A stretch of DNA of 64,000 nt from Flavobacteriaceae bacterium (lineage in GTDB: Bacteria; Bacteroidota; Bacteroidia; Flavobacteriales; Flavobacteriaceae), in contig JABDMU010000033.1 of assembly GCA_013001285.1 (NCBI GenBank), positions 1 to 64,000 of the forward strand, written 5' to 3'. A model generated the notes under the pieces. The model saw only the letters and a list, made by a program, of their open reading frames with translations, searched no databases and was not told the origin of the DNA. Shown piece by piece: positions 31,621-57,594 of the stretch (position 1 is the stretch's first letter; every line of letters starts with the position of its first letter). Position numbers and translations under genes: made by a program.

Positions 31621-31721
31621 CTTAATTTTCAAGAAATTGTCAGTTTATCTATAAAAATACACGTTTGAACTAAAAAATATGCATTTCATCTAATATTTAT
31701 AGCCTTTAAACAAATTACATC

Positions 31722-31729
31722 TACTTTAG
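31722..31729 (+). promoter_or_regulatory. -7 box of small RNA copy 1
   Basis: TACTTTAG is one base off the TAnnTTTG consensus. It ends 5 bases before the conserved RNA start (ACCAT), exactly as in copy 2. Confidence 0.55.
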
Positions 31730-31733
31730 TAAG

Positions 31734-31807
31734 ACCATAACATAAGTAGGTTAAGTTCATGGTAGATTTGGGGCAAAAAAAGGTGAACTCTAGTTCACCT
31801 TTTTTTA
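31734..31807 (+). ncRNA. Small RNA, copy 1
   Basis: A sequence of about 74 nucleotides. It begins with a hairpin whose stem pairs ACCAT at 31734-31738 with ATGGT at 31759-31763, continues with the conserved single-stranded segment GATTTGGGGC, and ends in a terminator hairpin (stem at about 31781-31800 extended by A-run/T-run pairing). Copy 2, 235 bases downstream, matches it at 40 of the first 41 positions, while the flanks differ. Conservation of transcript structure and promoter spacing indicates a real RNA gene. The family is not certain; the Bacteroidota Flavo-1 RNA is a candidate to test. Confidence 0.72.
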
Positions 31808-31956
31808 TTTTACACTATATTTTTTATTGAATTTTCTTCCTCTAATTCTCATTTTTTACAAATCCTAATCTTTTTGCCGATTTTTCCATTTTTAGCGCTT
31901 AGACTAATATATAAGTCGTTTGTCTAATAAATTTAATTCTTAGAAATAAGCTCTGT

Positions 31957-31964
31957 TATATTTG
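31957..31964 (+). promoter_or_regulatory. -7 box of small RNA copy 2
   Basis: TATATTTG is a perfect TAnnTTTG match ending 5 bases before the conserved ACCAT, so the RNA would begin at about 31969-31970. Confidence 0.65.
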
Positions 31965-31968
31965 TTTC

Positions 31969-32037
31969 ACCATAACATAAGTAGGTTAAGTTTATGGTAG
32001 ATTTGGGGCAAAAAGGTGGACGCAAGTTCACCTTTTT
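31969..32037 (+). ncRNA. Small RNA, copy 2
   Basis: A sequence of about 69 nucleotides, homologous to copy 1. A C-to-T change in the 5' hairpin restores A-U pairing and lengthens the stem to 7 bp (ACCATAA with TTATGGT). The terminator stem GGTGGAC/GTTCACC keeps pairing through a G-U wobble, and its loop is GCAA, a GNRA tetraloop. These changes keep the structure, which supports a functional RNA. The last hairpin also faces the sodA stop (32048) and may terminate that gene on the minus strand. Confidence 0.75.
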
Positions 32038-32047
32038 ATTTTTCTAA

Positions 32048-32656
32048 CTATTTTGCCTTTGCATATCGTCTCTCAACTTCATTCCAATTGATCACATTAA
32101 AAAATGCTTCAATATAATCTGGACGTCTGTTTTGATAGTTCAAATAATAAGCATGTTCCCATACATCAATTCCTAAAATTGGCATTCCACCACATCCTAC
32201 TCCTGGCATTAAAGGATTATCTTGATTAGGTGTAGAACAGACTTCAACACGTCCGCCTTTATGTACACAAAGCCAAGCCCATCCAGATCCAAATTGCGTT
32301 GCAGCAGCTTTACTAAAAGCCGTTTTAAAATCATCGAAAGATCCAAAGGCCGATTCGATGGCATCTTTTAATTCGCCAGACAATCTTCCTTTATCTTCTG
32401 GATTCATCACTTCCCAAAATAAGGCGTGATTAAAATAACCACCTCCATTATTTCTCACTGCTTTATTGTTCATGTCCATTGTAGTTAAAATATCCATGAT
32501 ACTTTTATTTGCAAGATCGGTGCCTTCAATTGCGGCATTCAACTTGGAGGTATACCCATTGTGATGTTTTGAATGATGTATTTCCATAGTACGTGCATCA
32601 ATGTGCGGTTCTAACGCATCATATGCATATTTTAATTTCGGTAATTCAAAAGCCAT
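32048..32656 (-). CDS. sodA: Superoxide dismutase (Mn/Fe type)
   Basis: A 202-residue enzyme that converts superoxide to oxygen and hydrogen peroxide in the cytoplasm. The metal ligands are His27, His77, Asp164 and His168 ([11 protein letters not shown]). Gln145 in TPNQDNPL suggests the manganese or cambialistic type, but metal choice cannot be proven from sequence. A perfect TAnnTTTG box lies upstream at 32692-32699. The stop is 10 bases from the end of the second small RNA, in convergent orientation. Confidence 0.96.
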
Positions 32657-54206: not shown

Positions 54207-54330
54207 CTATCTAAAAACCAAATACTTTTTACCCATGTTAAGCCCTTAATAGGAAAAACATGCATTACAACTAATTAATTACTAGGCGGTTTGCATTTTT
54301 TCTACATTAGTTGTCCAAATTTTTCTATAA

Positions 54331-55422
54331 ATGTTAAAAAAATACACCTTTTTGTTATGGGGCGTATTCTCATTAGTCATGGTTTCCTGTTCTCAGGACG
54401 AAACCTATGAGCCTATTGATGAGCCTGATATGGTTTCGCCAGTGGTTTTTGACATAAATAGCGTTCCCTACCCTAAATTGTCTGATTACAACTTTTATGA
54501 AGGCCAAATGTCAGATTTAGAGCCTGTATATGGCGTGCTCCCATACACATTGATTAATACACTTTTTACCGATTATGCTAAAAAGAAGCGTTTTATATGG
54601 ATGCCTTCAGATGCCATAGCAACTTATGAAAATGACAACGCTGTTTTGAATTTAGGTGTAGGCACCGTATTAATAAAGAACTTTTATTACGATAATGTCT
54701 TGCCAAATTTGGAAACCAAAATACTAGAAACACGCCTTATGATTCATAAAGAAACAGGATGGACCTTTGCTAACTATGTTTGGAATGAAGCACAAACTGA
54801 AGCTGTTTTGGACCTAGGTGGAAGTTTTTCGGCATTTGACTGGATACAAGACGGCGAAACTAAAAGTGTAAATTATCGTATACCAGCTGGCCCTGAATGT
54901 CAAACCTGTCACAAATCAGGTGATGTGTCAATTCCAATTGGACCTAAACCAAGAAATTTGAATTTAAATTACCCATATGCTGATGGCACCAAAAATCAAT
55001 TAGATAAATTGGTCGCATTTGGTTACTTAGAAAATTCCGTACCGAACAGTATCGAAACCATGGTCGCTTGGAATGATACCTCCCAACCCTTAAATGATCG
55101 TGTTAGATCTTATGTTGATATTAATTGTGCGCATTGTCATTCTGAAGACGCGCATTGTGCTTATCGCCCGATGCGATTTAACTTTGACTTGAGTGACGAC
55201 CCTGTGAACATGGGAGTTTGCGTGGAGCCAGATACTGATCTTGATCAAGGTCAAACACATATTGTAAGTCCATCTAATCAAGTACGTTCAATGATGTATT
55301 ATCGAATTTCCTCAACAGATGAGGCTGTAAGAATGCCATTATTGGGAAGAACTATAGTTCACGAAGAAGGCATCCAATTAGTTTATGATTGGATCGGTTC
55401 TTTGACAACTGAATGCGAATAA
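54331..55422 (+). CDS. Diheme c-type cytochrome lipoprotein (SO2930-like)
   Basis: A 363-residue lipoprotein (lipobox VSC, Cys20). Two heme-binding motifs CxxCH lie at residues 190-194 (CQTCH) and 267-271 (CAHCH). The architecture resembles the SO2930 family of diheme cytochromes (motif IPAGPECQTCH and GPKPRNLNLNYPY). It should carry electrons in the periplasm or at the outer membrane. It is followed 42 bases later by two T9SS cargo genes, which suggests a shared operon or regulon. Confidence 0.85.
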   Translation: MLKKYTFLLWGVFSLVMVSCSQDETYEPIDEPDMVSPVVFDINSVPYPKLSDYNFYEGQMSDLEPVYGVLPYTLINTLFTDYAKKKRFIWMPSDAIATYENDNAVLNLGVGTVLIKNFYYDNVLPNLETKILETRLMIHKETGWTFANYVWNEAQTEAVLDLGGSFSAFDWIQDGETKSVNYRIPAGPECQTCHKSGDVSIPIGPKPRNLNLNYPYADGTKNQLDKLVAFGYLENSVPNSIETMVAWNDTSQPLNDRVRSYVDINCAHCHSEDAHCAYRPMRFNFDLSDDPVNMGVCVEPDTDLDQGQTHIVSPSNQVRSMMYYRISSTDEAVRMPLLGRTIVHEEGIQLVYDWIGSLTTECE

Positions 55423-55464
55423 CATATATAAAATCAACCAAAGAGATATTAAAAATATAACGTT

Positions 55465-57594
55465 ATGAAAAAAATATTACTATCCTTACTAGCTGTAGCT
55501 TTTGCAGTATTTCCCCTTACAGCTCAAACAAGTTCGGATACATGTGCAGATGCGTCTGTAGCAACGGCAATAACAACTCCAGGAGTATTTTCCATCACTA
55601 TAATTGATGGATCGGAGATTCCAGATCCAGTATGTGCAGACAATGGAAGTGGTGCAACAAAAGGAGAGTGGTTCAGATTTATTCCAACAGCTACAGCTTA
55701 TGTAACTGTTTCTTCAGACCTTCCTCAAAACTCAGGCATTGATACCCGTGTTCATATTTATGATGACAATTGTGGTGGTACATTTTCTTGTGTTGGTGGT
55801 GATGACGATGCAGGTTCAGGATTTTTATCGGTTGCTAGTTTTAATGCTGTCGCAGGAGTAACTTATTATATCGCTTGGGATGATAGATGGATGCAAGATC
55901 CAGCTGATAATCTCCCTTTCGATTTTGAAGTGTCGTATTCAGCGCCACCACCACCACCACCAGTAACGTTTACAAGCCAAACGGTTTCAGCTACTGGCTC
56001 AGATAGAGCAATAGTAGATATGAATAACGACGGTTACGACGATCTTGTATCTGTTACCGGTACAAATATTAATATCAACTATAGCATGCCACCTAATACA
56101 ACTACGACGCCTTGGACGGCCGTATTTAATGATGTGGACATCACAACTTCTCAAGCAGATAATACCCCTTCTTGGAGTTTGGCTGCCGGAGATTTTGATA
56201 ACAATGGATATAATGATCTACTTTATGGAGGTGGATCAGGGGTGACGTTTATGAAAGCTAATAGTGATGGAACTGCTTTTACTGAAATTTCAGGGCCGGA
56301 ATATGTGTTCTCACAGCGTTCAAACTTTATTGATATAAATGATGATGGACATCTTGACGCCTTTGTGTGCCATGATGTTGATCCCAACGTATATTATATT
56401 AATGACGGGTTTGGAAATTTAACGTTTTACCAAGGTGCTAGCGCTGCTGTCCCGAAAGGTTTAGGAACACATGCTGATGGAGGTAATTACGGCACGGTTT
56501 GGATCGATTATGATAACGATAAAGATTTGGACTTATTCATAGCAAAGTGTCGCGGAGGAAGTGTAACGCACAAATATAATGAGCTTTGGCAAAATGATGG
56601 TAGTGGCACGTATACCAATGTTGCTGATGGAGCTGGTTATTATCAATCTAATTTTCCTGCCGAAGGTCATAATAACTCTTCAGGTTTAGGCGACCCTATT
56701 CAAACATGGTCTTCTGCCTGGGCTGACTTTGACAATGATGGTGATATGGATGTATATGTAGGCGCAAGTTCTTTTACCGATGGCGGTCATAAGCTAATGC
56801 GAAACAATGGTGACGGTACTTTTTCAGATATTTCTGCTGGCTCCGGAATTTCAGGAGCACCAACAGGAATTGAAAATGCCCCTGGTGATTTTGATAATGA
56901 TGGCTATGTTGATATTCTAACAAATGGTCAGATCTTATTTAATAATGGCGATAGTACATTTACCTTAAATAGTGCAGGAATGCCTCCAAGCGGTCCAATT
57001 GGTGACATCAACCGAGATGGCTTTTTAGATGTGTTTAATGGAAATATCCGCTTGAATGATGGTAACTCGAATAACTGGATGGAAATTTGTACCATAGGTG
57101 TACAAAGTAATAGAAACGGTATTGGTGCACGTGTCGAAATCAATAGCCCAGGACTAGGAACTCAAATAAGAGATGTAAGAAGTGGTGAAGGTTTCAGATA
57201 CATGAGTAGTCTGAATACACATTTCGGATTAGGTTCAGATACCACGGTAAATACCATTACAATTTATTGGCCATCTGGAACTGTTGATCTTATTGTTAAT
57301 CCAACTATAAACTCTAGAATATGTGTAACTGAAGGTGAGACCTTGAGTTTACAACAATCGCTTGTAAATGACCTTATTCTTTATCCTAACCCAACTAAAG
57401 ATGTGCTTAATTTAAATGCAACTTATGGTTTTGAGAATGCTATTTTTACAGTTTTTGATATTAATGGAAAACGTGTAATGAATAGTCGATTCAATACAAA
57501 TTCAATTGATGTTTCTCAACTTAGTGCAGGAAGTTACATTTTACGAATAATGGATGATGGCCTAATGACCTCGCAGAAATTTATCAAACAATAA
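55465..57594 (+). CDS. T9SS cargo protein with FG-GAP/VCBS repeats and ASPIC/UnbV domain (paralogue 1)
   Basis: A 709-residue secreted protein: signal peptide (LTAQ, cut near 22), an N-terminal domain of the pre-peptidase-C-like type (about 25-155), a poly-proline linker, seven calcium-binding FG-GAP-like repeats with DxDxDG patterns (about 175-520, for example DFDNDGDMD), an ASPIC/UnbV domain (about 535-620, GARVEIN and IRDVRSGEGFRYM) and a T9SS type A C-terminal domain (about 635-709, ILYPNPTKD and LSAGSYILRI). The function is unknown; it may bind carbohydrate or calcium at the cell surface. It is followed by a terminator and a close paralogue. Confidence 0.92.
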   Translation: MKKILLSLLAVAFAVFPLTAQTSSDTCADASVATAITTPGVFSITIIDGSEIPDPVCADNGSGATKGEWFRFIPTATAYVTVSSDLPQNSGIDTRVHIYDDNCGGTFSCVGGDDDAGSGFLSVASFNAVAGVTYYIAWDDRWMQDPADNLPFDFEVSYSAPPPPPPVTFTSQTVSATGSDRAIVDMNNDGYDDLVSVTGTNININYSMPPNTTTTPWTAVFNDVDITTSQADNTPSWSLAAGDFDNNGYNDLLYGGGSGVTFMKANSDGTAFTEISGPEYVFSQRSNFIDINDDGHLDAFVCHDVDPNVYYINDGFGNLTFYQGASAAVPKGLGTHADGGNYGTVWIDYDNDKDLDLFIAKCRGGSVTHKYNELWQNDGSGTYTNVADGAGYYQSNFPAEGHNNSSGLGDPIQTWSSAWADFDNDGDMDVYVGASSFTDGGHKLMRNNGDGTFSDISAGSGISGAPTGIENAPGDFDNDGYVDILTNGQILFNNGDSTFTLNSAGMPPSGPIGDINRDGFLDVFNGNIRLNDGNSNNWMEICTIGVQSNRNGIGARVEINSPGLGTQIRDVRSGEGFRYMSSLNTHFGLGSDTTVNTITIYWPSGTVDLIVNPTINSRICVTEGETLSLQQSLVNDLILYPNPTKDVLNLNATYGFENAIFTVFDINGKRVMNSRFNTNSIDVSQLSAGSYILRIMDDGLMTSQKFIKQ

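Follow-up and report, generated by a model that had tools for sequence, protein, structure and literature searches.

The window, a stretch of 64,000 nt from the Flavobacteriaceae bacterium assembly GCA_013001285.1 (contig JABDMU010000033.1), carries, in the interval from a purF-like gene to sodA, two predicted RNA genes of about 72 nt at a distance of 235 bp from each other (window positions 31700-32060; Table 1). Their 5' ends lie at about 31734-31735 (copy 1) and about 31969-31970 (copy 2), and the 40-nt cores (31735-31774 and 31970-32009) show a single difference, C or T after GTT. An initial annotation had described two copies 235 bases apart that share a 5' body, the linker GATTTGGGGC and a terminator, as well as base changes that preserve pairing, and both descriptions hold: the cores differ at one base, and the terminator of copy 2 has a G-U pair and a GNRA (GCAA) loop. 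It also placed a TAnnTTTG-type box 5 bases upstream of each RNA. The spacing was recovered in both copies (before CC), while the strict motif fails in copy 1, which reads TAnnTTAG. The folding of each copy beats all 200 dinucleotide shuffles. In addition, the terminator of copy 2 and the sodA stop codon at 32048 are separated by 11 bp (region 32010-32048), and the reverse complement of this terminator also reads as a minus-strand terminator, so that it may end sodA too and serve both genes.

Table 1. Features of the small RNA locus and of the third direct-repeat element, in window positions.
Feature	Position	Strand	Basis or remark
Upstream neighbour, purF-like glutamine amidotransferase-domain protein, 632 aa	29722..31620	+	Pfam GATase_7/GATase_6
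Direct-repeat element, copy 1, TTGAACTAA ... GCATTTCATCTAA, LytTR-like	31665..31693	+	20-bp period; PWM 27.9 bits
-7 box, copy 1, TACTTTAG	31722..31729	+	Footprint over 150 promoters, positions -13 to -6
Small RNA gene, copy 1	31735..31806	+	R1 covariance match 31733-31805, E 6e-21; fold z -4.3
Hairpin loop AUAAGUAGGUUAA, candidate seed 1	31742..31754 (copy 1); 31977..31989 (copy 2)	+	AGUAGGUUA nearly invariant, 150 copies
Linker GAUUUGGGGC, single-stranded, candidate seed 2	31765..31774 (copy 1); 32000..32009 (copy 2)	+	Unpaired in folds; GAUUUGGG nearly invariant
Intrinsic terminator, copy 1, GGTGAAC-TCTA-GTTCACC-T7	31782..31806	+	Covarying stem
Direct-repeat element, copy 2, TTAGACTAA ... 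TCGTTTGTCTAA, LytTR-like	31899..31927	+	20-bp period; PWM 30.3 bits
-7 box, copy 2, TATATTTG	31957..31964	+	Footprint over 150 promoters, positions -13 to -6
Small RNA gene, copy 2	31970..32037	+	R1 covariance match 31968-32038, E 6e-19; fold z -3.6
Intrinsic terminator, copy 2, GGTGGAC-GCAA-GTTCACC-T5	32015..32037	+	Covarying stem
Downstream convergent neighbour, sodA (Fe/Mn superoxide dismutase)	32048..32656	-	Pfam Sod_Fe_N/C
Third LytTR-like element	54245..54278	+	PWM 14.6 bits, third-best site

A covariance model of the RNA (R1) was used to search 400 Flavobacteriaceae genomes and retrieved the RNA in 327 of them, corresponding to 202 of 237 genera, with one to seven copies per genome. Thirty-nine bases are identical between genera, and a search with this 39-base pattern, allowing up to three mismatches, retrieved it from 16 of 60 genomes, where most matches were perfect and arranged in tandem. 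The scan of named genomes located the RNA in Winogradskyella, Tamlana, Algibacter, Aquimarina, Flavobacterium, Formosa and Lacinutrix, and also in Salegentibacter, Christiangramia, Kordia, Aequorivita and others. Searches in other families of the order returned weak terminator-like matches alone (E >= 4e-6), several of them on both strands at the same terminator, and these are read as chance. Both purF-like and sodA-like neighbours are present at 46 of the 69 loci examined, a lower bound as the neighbours were called by simple motifs, and in some genomes (G007, G013) the copies occupy separate loci, each beside one of the two neighbours only.

The structure is conserved by covariation. In an alignment of 150 copies (122 distinct) fitted to the R1 model, 13 pairs changed on both sides, a score reached by none of 500 shuffles and far above that of the slid-structure controls, and the same covariation had already been seen in a MAFFT alignment of 28 copies. 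Over the 150 copies, 98.8% of the cells pair; the terminator stem has changes on both sides in 10 of its 11 pairs, and the 5' stem is nearly invariant, with a few compensatory changes. Hardly any variation is seen among the 150 copies in the loop AGUAGGUUA or the linker AGAUUUGGG either. No Rfam 15 family exceeded its gathering score at the RNA loci, the sole match in the window being a tRNA, and the relaxed-threshold matches, none above gathering score, fell mostly on the terminator. Flavo-1 (RF01705), to which the initial annotation had pointed as a check, gave no match to the RNAs at E<=5, and the core sequence is absent from the literature searched. By these sequence comparisons, the family is carried by most Flavobacteriaceae and is lacking from Rfam 15. 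The earlier reading of the two copies as a regulatory RNA pair thus gains support from family-wide conservation, a predicted promoter and terminator for each copy, covariation and syntenic tandem copies; the copies show an own promoter, a terminator and a structure conserved by covariation, the marks of an intrinsically terminated small RNA gene. In the model proposed below, both copies would encode a single trans-acting small RNA of about 72 nt, and each would have a separate promoter and terminator.

The promoters of these RNAs share two features. A TAnnTTTG-like box at -13 to -6 is present in most of the 150 promoters, and 46 of them have the exact TAnnTTTG at this one position, the background being 0.0002 per position. 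Most of the 150 also have a pair of half-sites set 20 bp apart, near -71 and -51, with the consensus TT(A)(A)nCyAA ... GC(A/C)(T/G)TTYRTCTAA; at one locus (L034) both half-sites are TGCATTTCATCTAA. The sites of LytTR regulators are paired repeats of 9-11 nt with spacers of 11-13 nt, and that of the Escherichia coli LytTR response regulator YpdB is GGCATTTCAT, a direct repeat (PMC4847170). The RNA half-site GCATTTCAT resembles GGCATTTCAT, which is the closest described site. The RNA promoters have the paired repeats of about 10 bp, about two helical turns apart, that are typical of LytTR-regulated promoters, their 20-bp period falling at the short end of the known range. This resemblance of sites suggests that the element is recognized by a LytTR-type regulator.

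In the window's genome, the element pattern scores best at the two RNA promoters and then at an array of 20-bp units located before gldK, a core gene of the type IX secretion system (T9SS). Among the 11 closest gldK loci, 8 display the element in inverted orientation, about -115 to -136 from the start, scoring 12-24 bits where the 99.9th percentile of the locus does not exceed 3.8. The element was also searched for in a single genome, G279, the scan covering 2.0 Mb (about 65% of it) and using a matrix from which that genus had been excluded. Cargo was defined by T9SS sorting tails, called by small purpose-built profiles (NCBIfam or Pfam confirmed most of the top genes). A high-scoring element in the same orientation stands before 10 of the 45 cargo genes but before 3 of the 1210 remaining genes (p 3e-13), and one of these three non-cargo sites belongs to the LytTR regulator gene itself (score 15.6). 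The extra 0.4 Mb of G279, considered alone, has the element before 2 of 8 cargo genes and none of 264 others (p 8e-4). The element is found at only about a quarter of the cargo genes. In G279, an OmpA-family lipoprotein gene (L345, 2608-3453) likewise has an inverted element nearby.

The third element of the window is located about 50 bp before a gene for an SO2930-like diheme cytochrome c, followed by a gene whose 709-aa product carries a T9SS type A tail (54331-57594), the pair being identified by TIGR03806 (diheme cytochrome) and TIGR04183 (T9SS cargo). It is likely that the pair at 54245-57594 is a member of the same regulon as the RNAs and the T9SS genes. As this promoter control site is common to the RNAs, T9SS genes and secreted proteins, the two RNAs probably adjust the set of products exported to the cell surface.

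Seven LytTR proteins are encoded in the window's genome, and one of them, between rpsF/rpsR and priA (G000:C77:37346-38038), has the element in its own promoter. Of the 14 closest relatives, 13 also have the element before this regulator gene (12.6-17.4 bits), and the protein is 93-97% identical across many genera. Among the 400 genomes, 290 have both the regulator and the RNA, 37 the RNA only, 6 the regulator only and 67 neither (p 1e-41), so that the presence states agree in 357; with one genome per genus, these counts are 179, 20, 2 and 36, respectively (p 9e-26). The exceptions include G019, with the RNA and no clear ortholog of the regulator, and G009, with the regulator and no RNA. These p-values overstate independence, because the gldK tree explains the presence pattern with only about 4 changes and the co-occurrence is not phylogenetically independent. 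The autoregulatory site and the co-occurrence point to this LytTR protein as the putative binder of the 20-bp repeat. In G279, the element is also found 538 bp before a gene for a TPR histidine kinase (L285, 5743-7758), a possible partner kinase.

Targets were predicted with RNAduplex by pairing the loop and the linker with the region from -60 to +40 of 1679 G279 genes, ignoring mRNA structure and with uncurated start codons. Five of the best 15 predictions are T9SS cargo genes (47 of 1679 overall; 0.4 expected), a number reached by none of 60 shuffled RNAs. A rank test over cargo also gave p 3e-4, yet it was matched by 3 of the 60 shuffles, and the enrichment seen in 1.6 Mb of G279 was not repeated in the further 0.4 Mb (9 cargo genes, p 0.27). 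Non-cargo genes with signal-peptide-like sequences were not enriched in the same ranking. In the best cases, both RNA segments pair around the start codon, e.g., ACCCCAAAUAAAAUGAUUAAAACUACCUACUUAUGC. The cargo start regions with the best predictions are those of the G279 genes at 1540320, 946885 and 941436. The bipartite pattern CCCAAAT-N(3-28)-AACCTAC, counted outside the RNA genes themselves, shows a modest excess in relatives with the RNA (59 vs 38 for the reversed control) and none in relatives without it (23 vs 22). A contiguous-k-mer search for bipartite sites in G279, which was too loose, gave no overall excess over controls. Pairing with the LytTR regulator's own mRNA was rejected, its start region being weak (mean z -1.3). 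These predictions are suggestive only of T9SS cargo mRNAs as targets of the RNA.

The best model, to which we give a little better than even credence as a whole, is that a LytTR regulator switches on the T9SS machinery, its cargo and the RNAs, and that the RNA pairs with the start regions of cargo mRNAs. A conserved and autoregulated LytTR response regulator would bind the direct repeat of 20-bp period and jointly induce the RNAs, its own gene, the T9SS core operon from gldK and a set of T9SS-secreted surface proteins. Less certainly, the RNA loop (AAGUAGGUUAAG) and linker (AGAUUUGGGGC) would pair with the start-codon regions of cargo (pattern GCCCCAAAU ... AACCUACUU around AUG), most likely repressing translation. 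The regulator would thereby activate cargo at the promoter and restrain it via the RNA, an incoherent feed-forward loop that could limit or order cargo, and the several RNA copies may provide dose and speed. Comparison between genomes shows the family, the RNA structure, the promoter element and the sharing of this element, and we infer the regulator identity, the targets and the sign of repression.

More tentatively, and with somewhat less than even confidence, we propose that a family-wide LytTR regulon joins T9SS machinery, cargo and a tandem RNA restraining cargo translation, that is, a post-transcriptional brake on the T9SS. If true, this brake would play a part like that of the sigma-E small RNAs MicA and RybB in the control of outer-membrane proteins. 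Flavobacteriaceae count among the major bacteria of the sea, of soil and of fish, and the T9SS runs their surface and secretion biology; its regulation is poorly known outside Porphyromonas. Given a near-universal, strongly conserved RNA lacking from Rfam, together with a candidate for its regulator, a shared DNA element and a set of predicted targets, the choice of surface proteins becomes testable.

Other readings of these data should be considered. The same promoter regulon and a trans-acting RNA could exist with other envelope mRNAs (lipoproteins, gldK or the regulator mRNA), instead of cargo, as the main targets. On average, the gldK start regions do give stronger pairing than shuffles (mean z -2.0), and a lipoprotein gene of G025 presents CACCCCAAATCC...ATGAAAACCTAC across its start. 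However, the pairing with gldK mostly needs the RNA stem to be opened, the regulator start region pairs weakly, as mentioned above, and signal-peptide-like genes in general are not enriched among the predicted targets; we regard this possibility as unlikely, about one chance in four. Less probable still is a protein-binding decoy similar to CsrB or 6S, in which the invariant G-rich loop and linker would titrate an RNA-binding protein and base pairing would be irrelevant. The extreme family-wide conservation of both unpaired segments and the multiple copies fit such titration, and the Bacteroides protein RbpB binds a multicopy RNA family (PMC11697453). Nevertheless, each RNA has one short motif set and no repeated sites, and the number of cargo genes in the best 15 predictions exceeds that of all shuffled RNAs.

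The control of oxidative stress through sodA, an idea of the initial annotation, is rejected as very improbable: sodA adjoins the RNAs at most loci examined, but it is convergent with them, some copies are at other loci, and the shared promoter element marks T9SS genes and points to a LytTR regulator, not to oxidative stress. Finally, an interspersed repeat or a short coding gene, suggested by the several copies per genome and by a short frame that could start at ATGGTAGATTTGGGG, can practically be dismissed, given that the copies mostly share one syntenic locus, that their promoters are conserved and that their terminators covary. The peptide reading of ATGGTAGATTTGGGG was discarded, its frame being broken in many copies by an A inserted after ATGGTA.

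Several known systems resemble the model favoured here, in which a LytTR regulator would control the RNAs together with T9SS genes. Qrr, PrrF1/F2 and LhrC are tandem or multicopy RNAs with near-identical copies and separate promoters and terminators, as here, although they belong to other phyla and have other regulators and sequences. In Staphylococcus aureus, the LytTR response regulator AgrA activates RNAIII, a regulatory RNA controlling secreted proteins. The path from a LytTR regulator to an RNA and to secreted proteins would be alike in Flavobacteriaceae, where the link to the regulator is a predicted one, whereas RNAIII is about 500 nt long, single copy and unrelated in sequence. PorXY-SigP of Porphyromonas gingivalis is similarly a two-component control of T9SS genes, although PorX acts via an ECF sigma factor (PMC4800418) and the present case would involve a LytTR regulator, its own DNA element and an RNA branch. 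Rfp18 of Flavobacterium psychrophilum, compared here by description only, is also a conserved flavobacterial small RNA, affects metalloprotease mRNAs and has a putative secreted adhesin among its predicted targets, but it is described as pairing via a third stem-loop (PMC9723704), and the present RNA consists of a 5' hairpin and a terminator.

The FopS/GibS RNAs of Bacteroides (RF04319) are likewise short (about 65-70 nt) and multicopy, with a conserved single-stranded segment and a terminator, and their start-region pairing with surface-protein mRNAs has been shown (PMC11697453), as is predicted for the flavobacterial RNA. In contrast to FopS, the latter has a 5' hairpin, a LytTR-like promoter element and tandem copies at one locus. 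Membership in RF04319 was rejected (22.8 bits, E 0.25-0.34, against a gathering score of 56 bits). The string UUCAUGGU..AGAUUU is common to the FopS 5' region and window positions 31750-31809, with 155-238 of 4000 dinucleotide shuffles as good (4-6%). FopS is the nearest Bacteroidota analogue in design, not a demonstrated relative.

Some divergent copies also deserve mention. The window's own genome has a third copy (L013, about 2690-2790; G000:C17:72721-72785) with a weak R1 match of 24 bits, in which CATAAGTAGGTT and TAGATTTG are partly doubled and no clear poly-T terminator is seen; it is possibly a decayed copy. Two variants at L025 (2469-2538 and 11093-11162), 8.6 kb apart and away from purF-sodA, end in GATTTGGGTA instead of GGGGC and have different terminators. 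In another clade (L066, L067, L072-L076), the variant AGATTTGGGACGA occurs in some copies, and the half-sites of the first array copy are inverted (TCGATGAAATGCAT ...); the copies of this clade may thus differ in targets and control. The RNA was also found on contigs labelled as Lentimicrobium, Bacteroidota or Bacteroidetes MAGs (L187, L139, L143 and L204), which may be loosely binned or named flavobacterial contigs.
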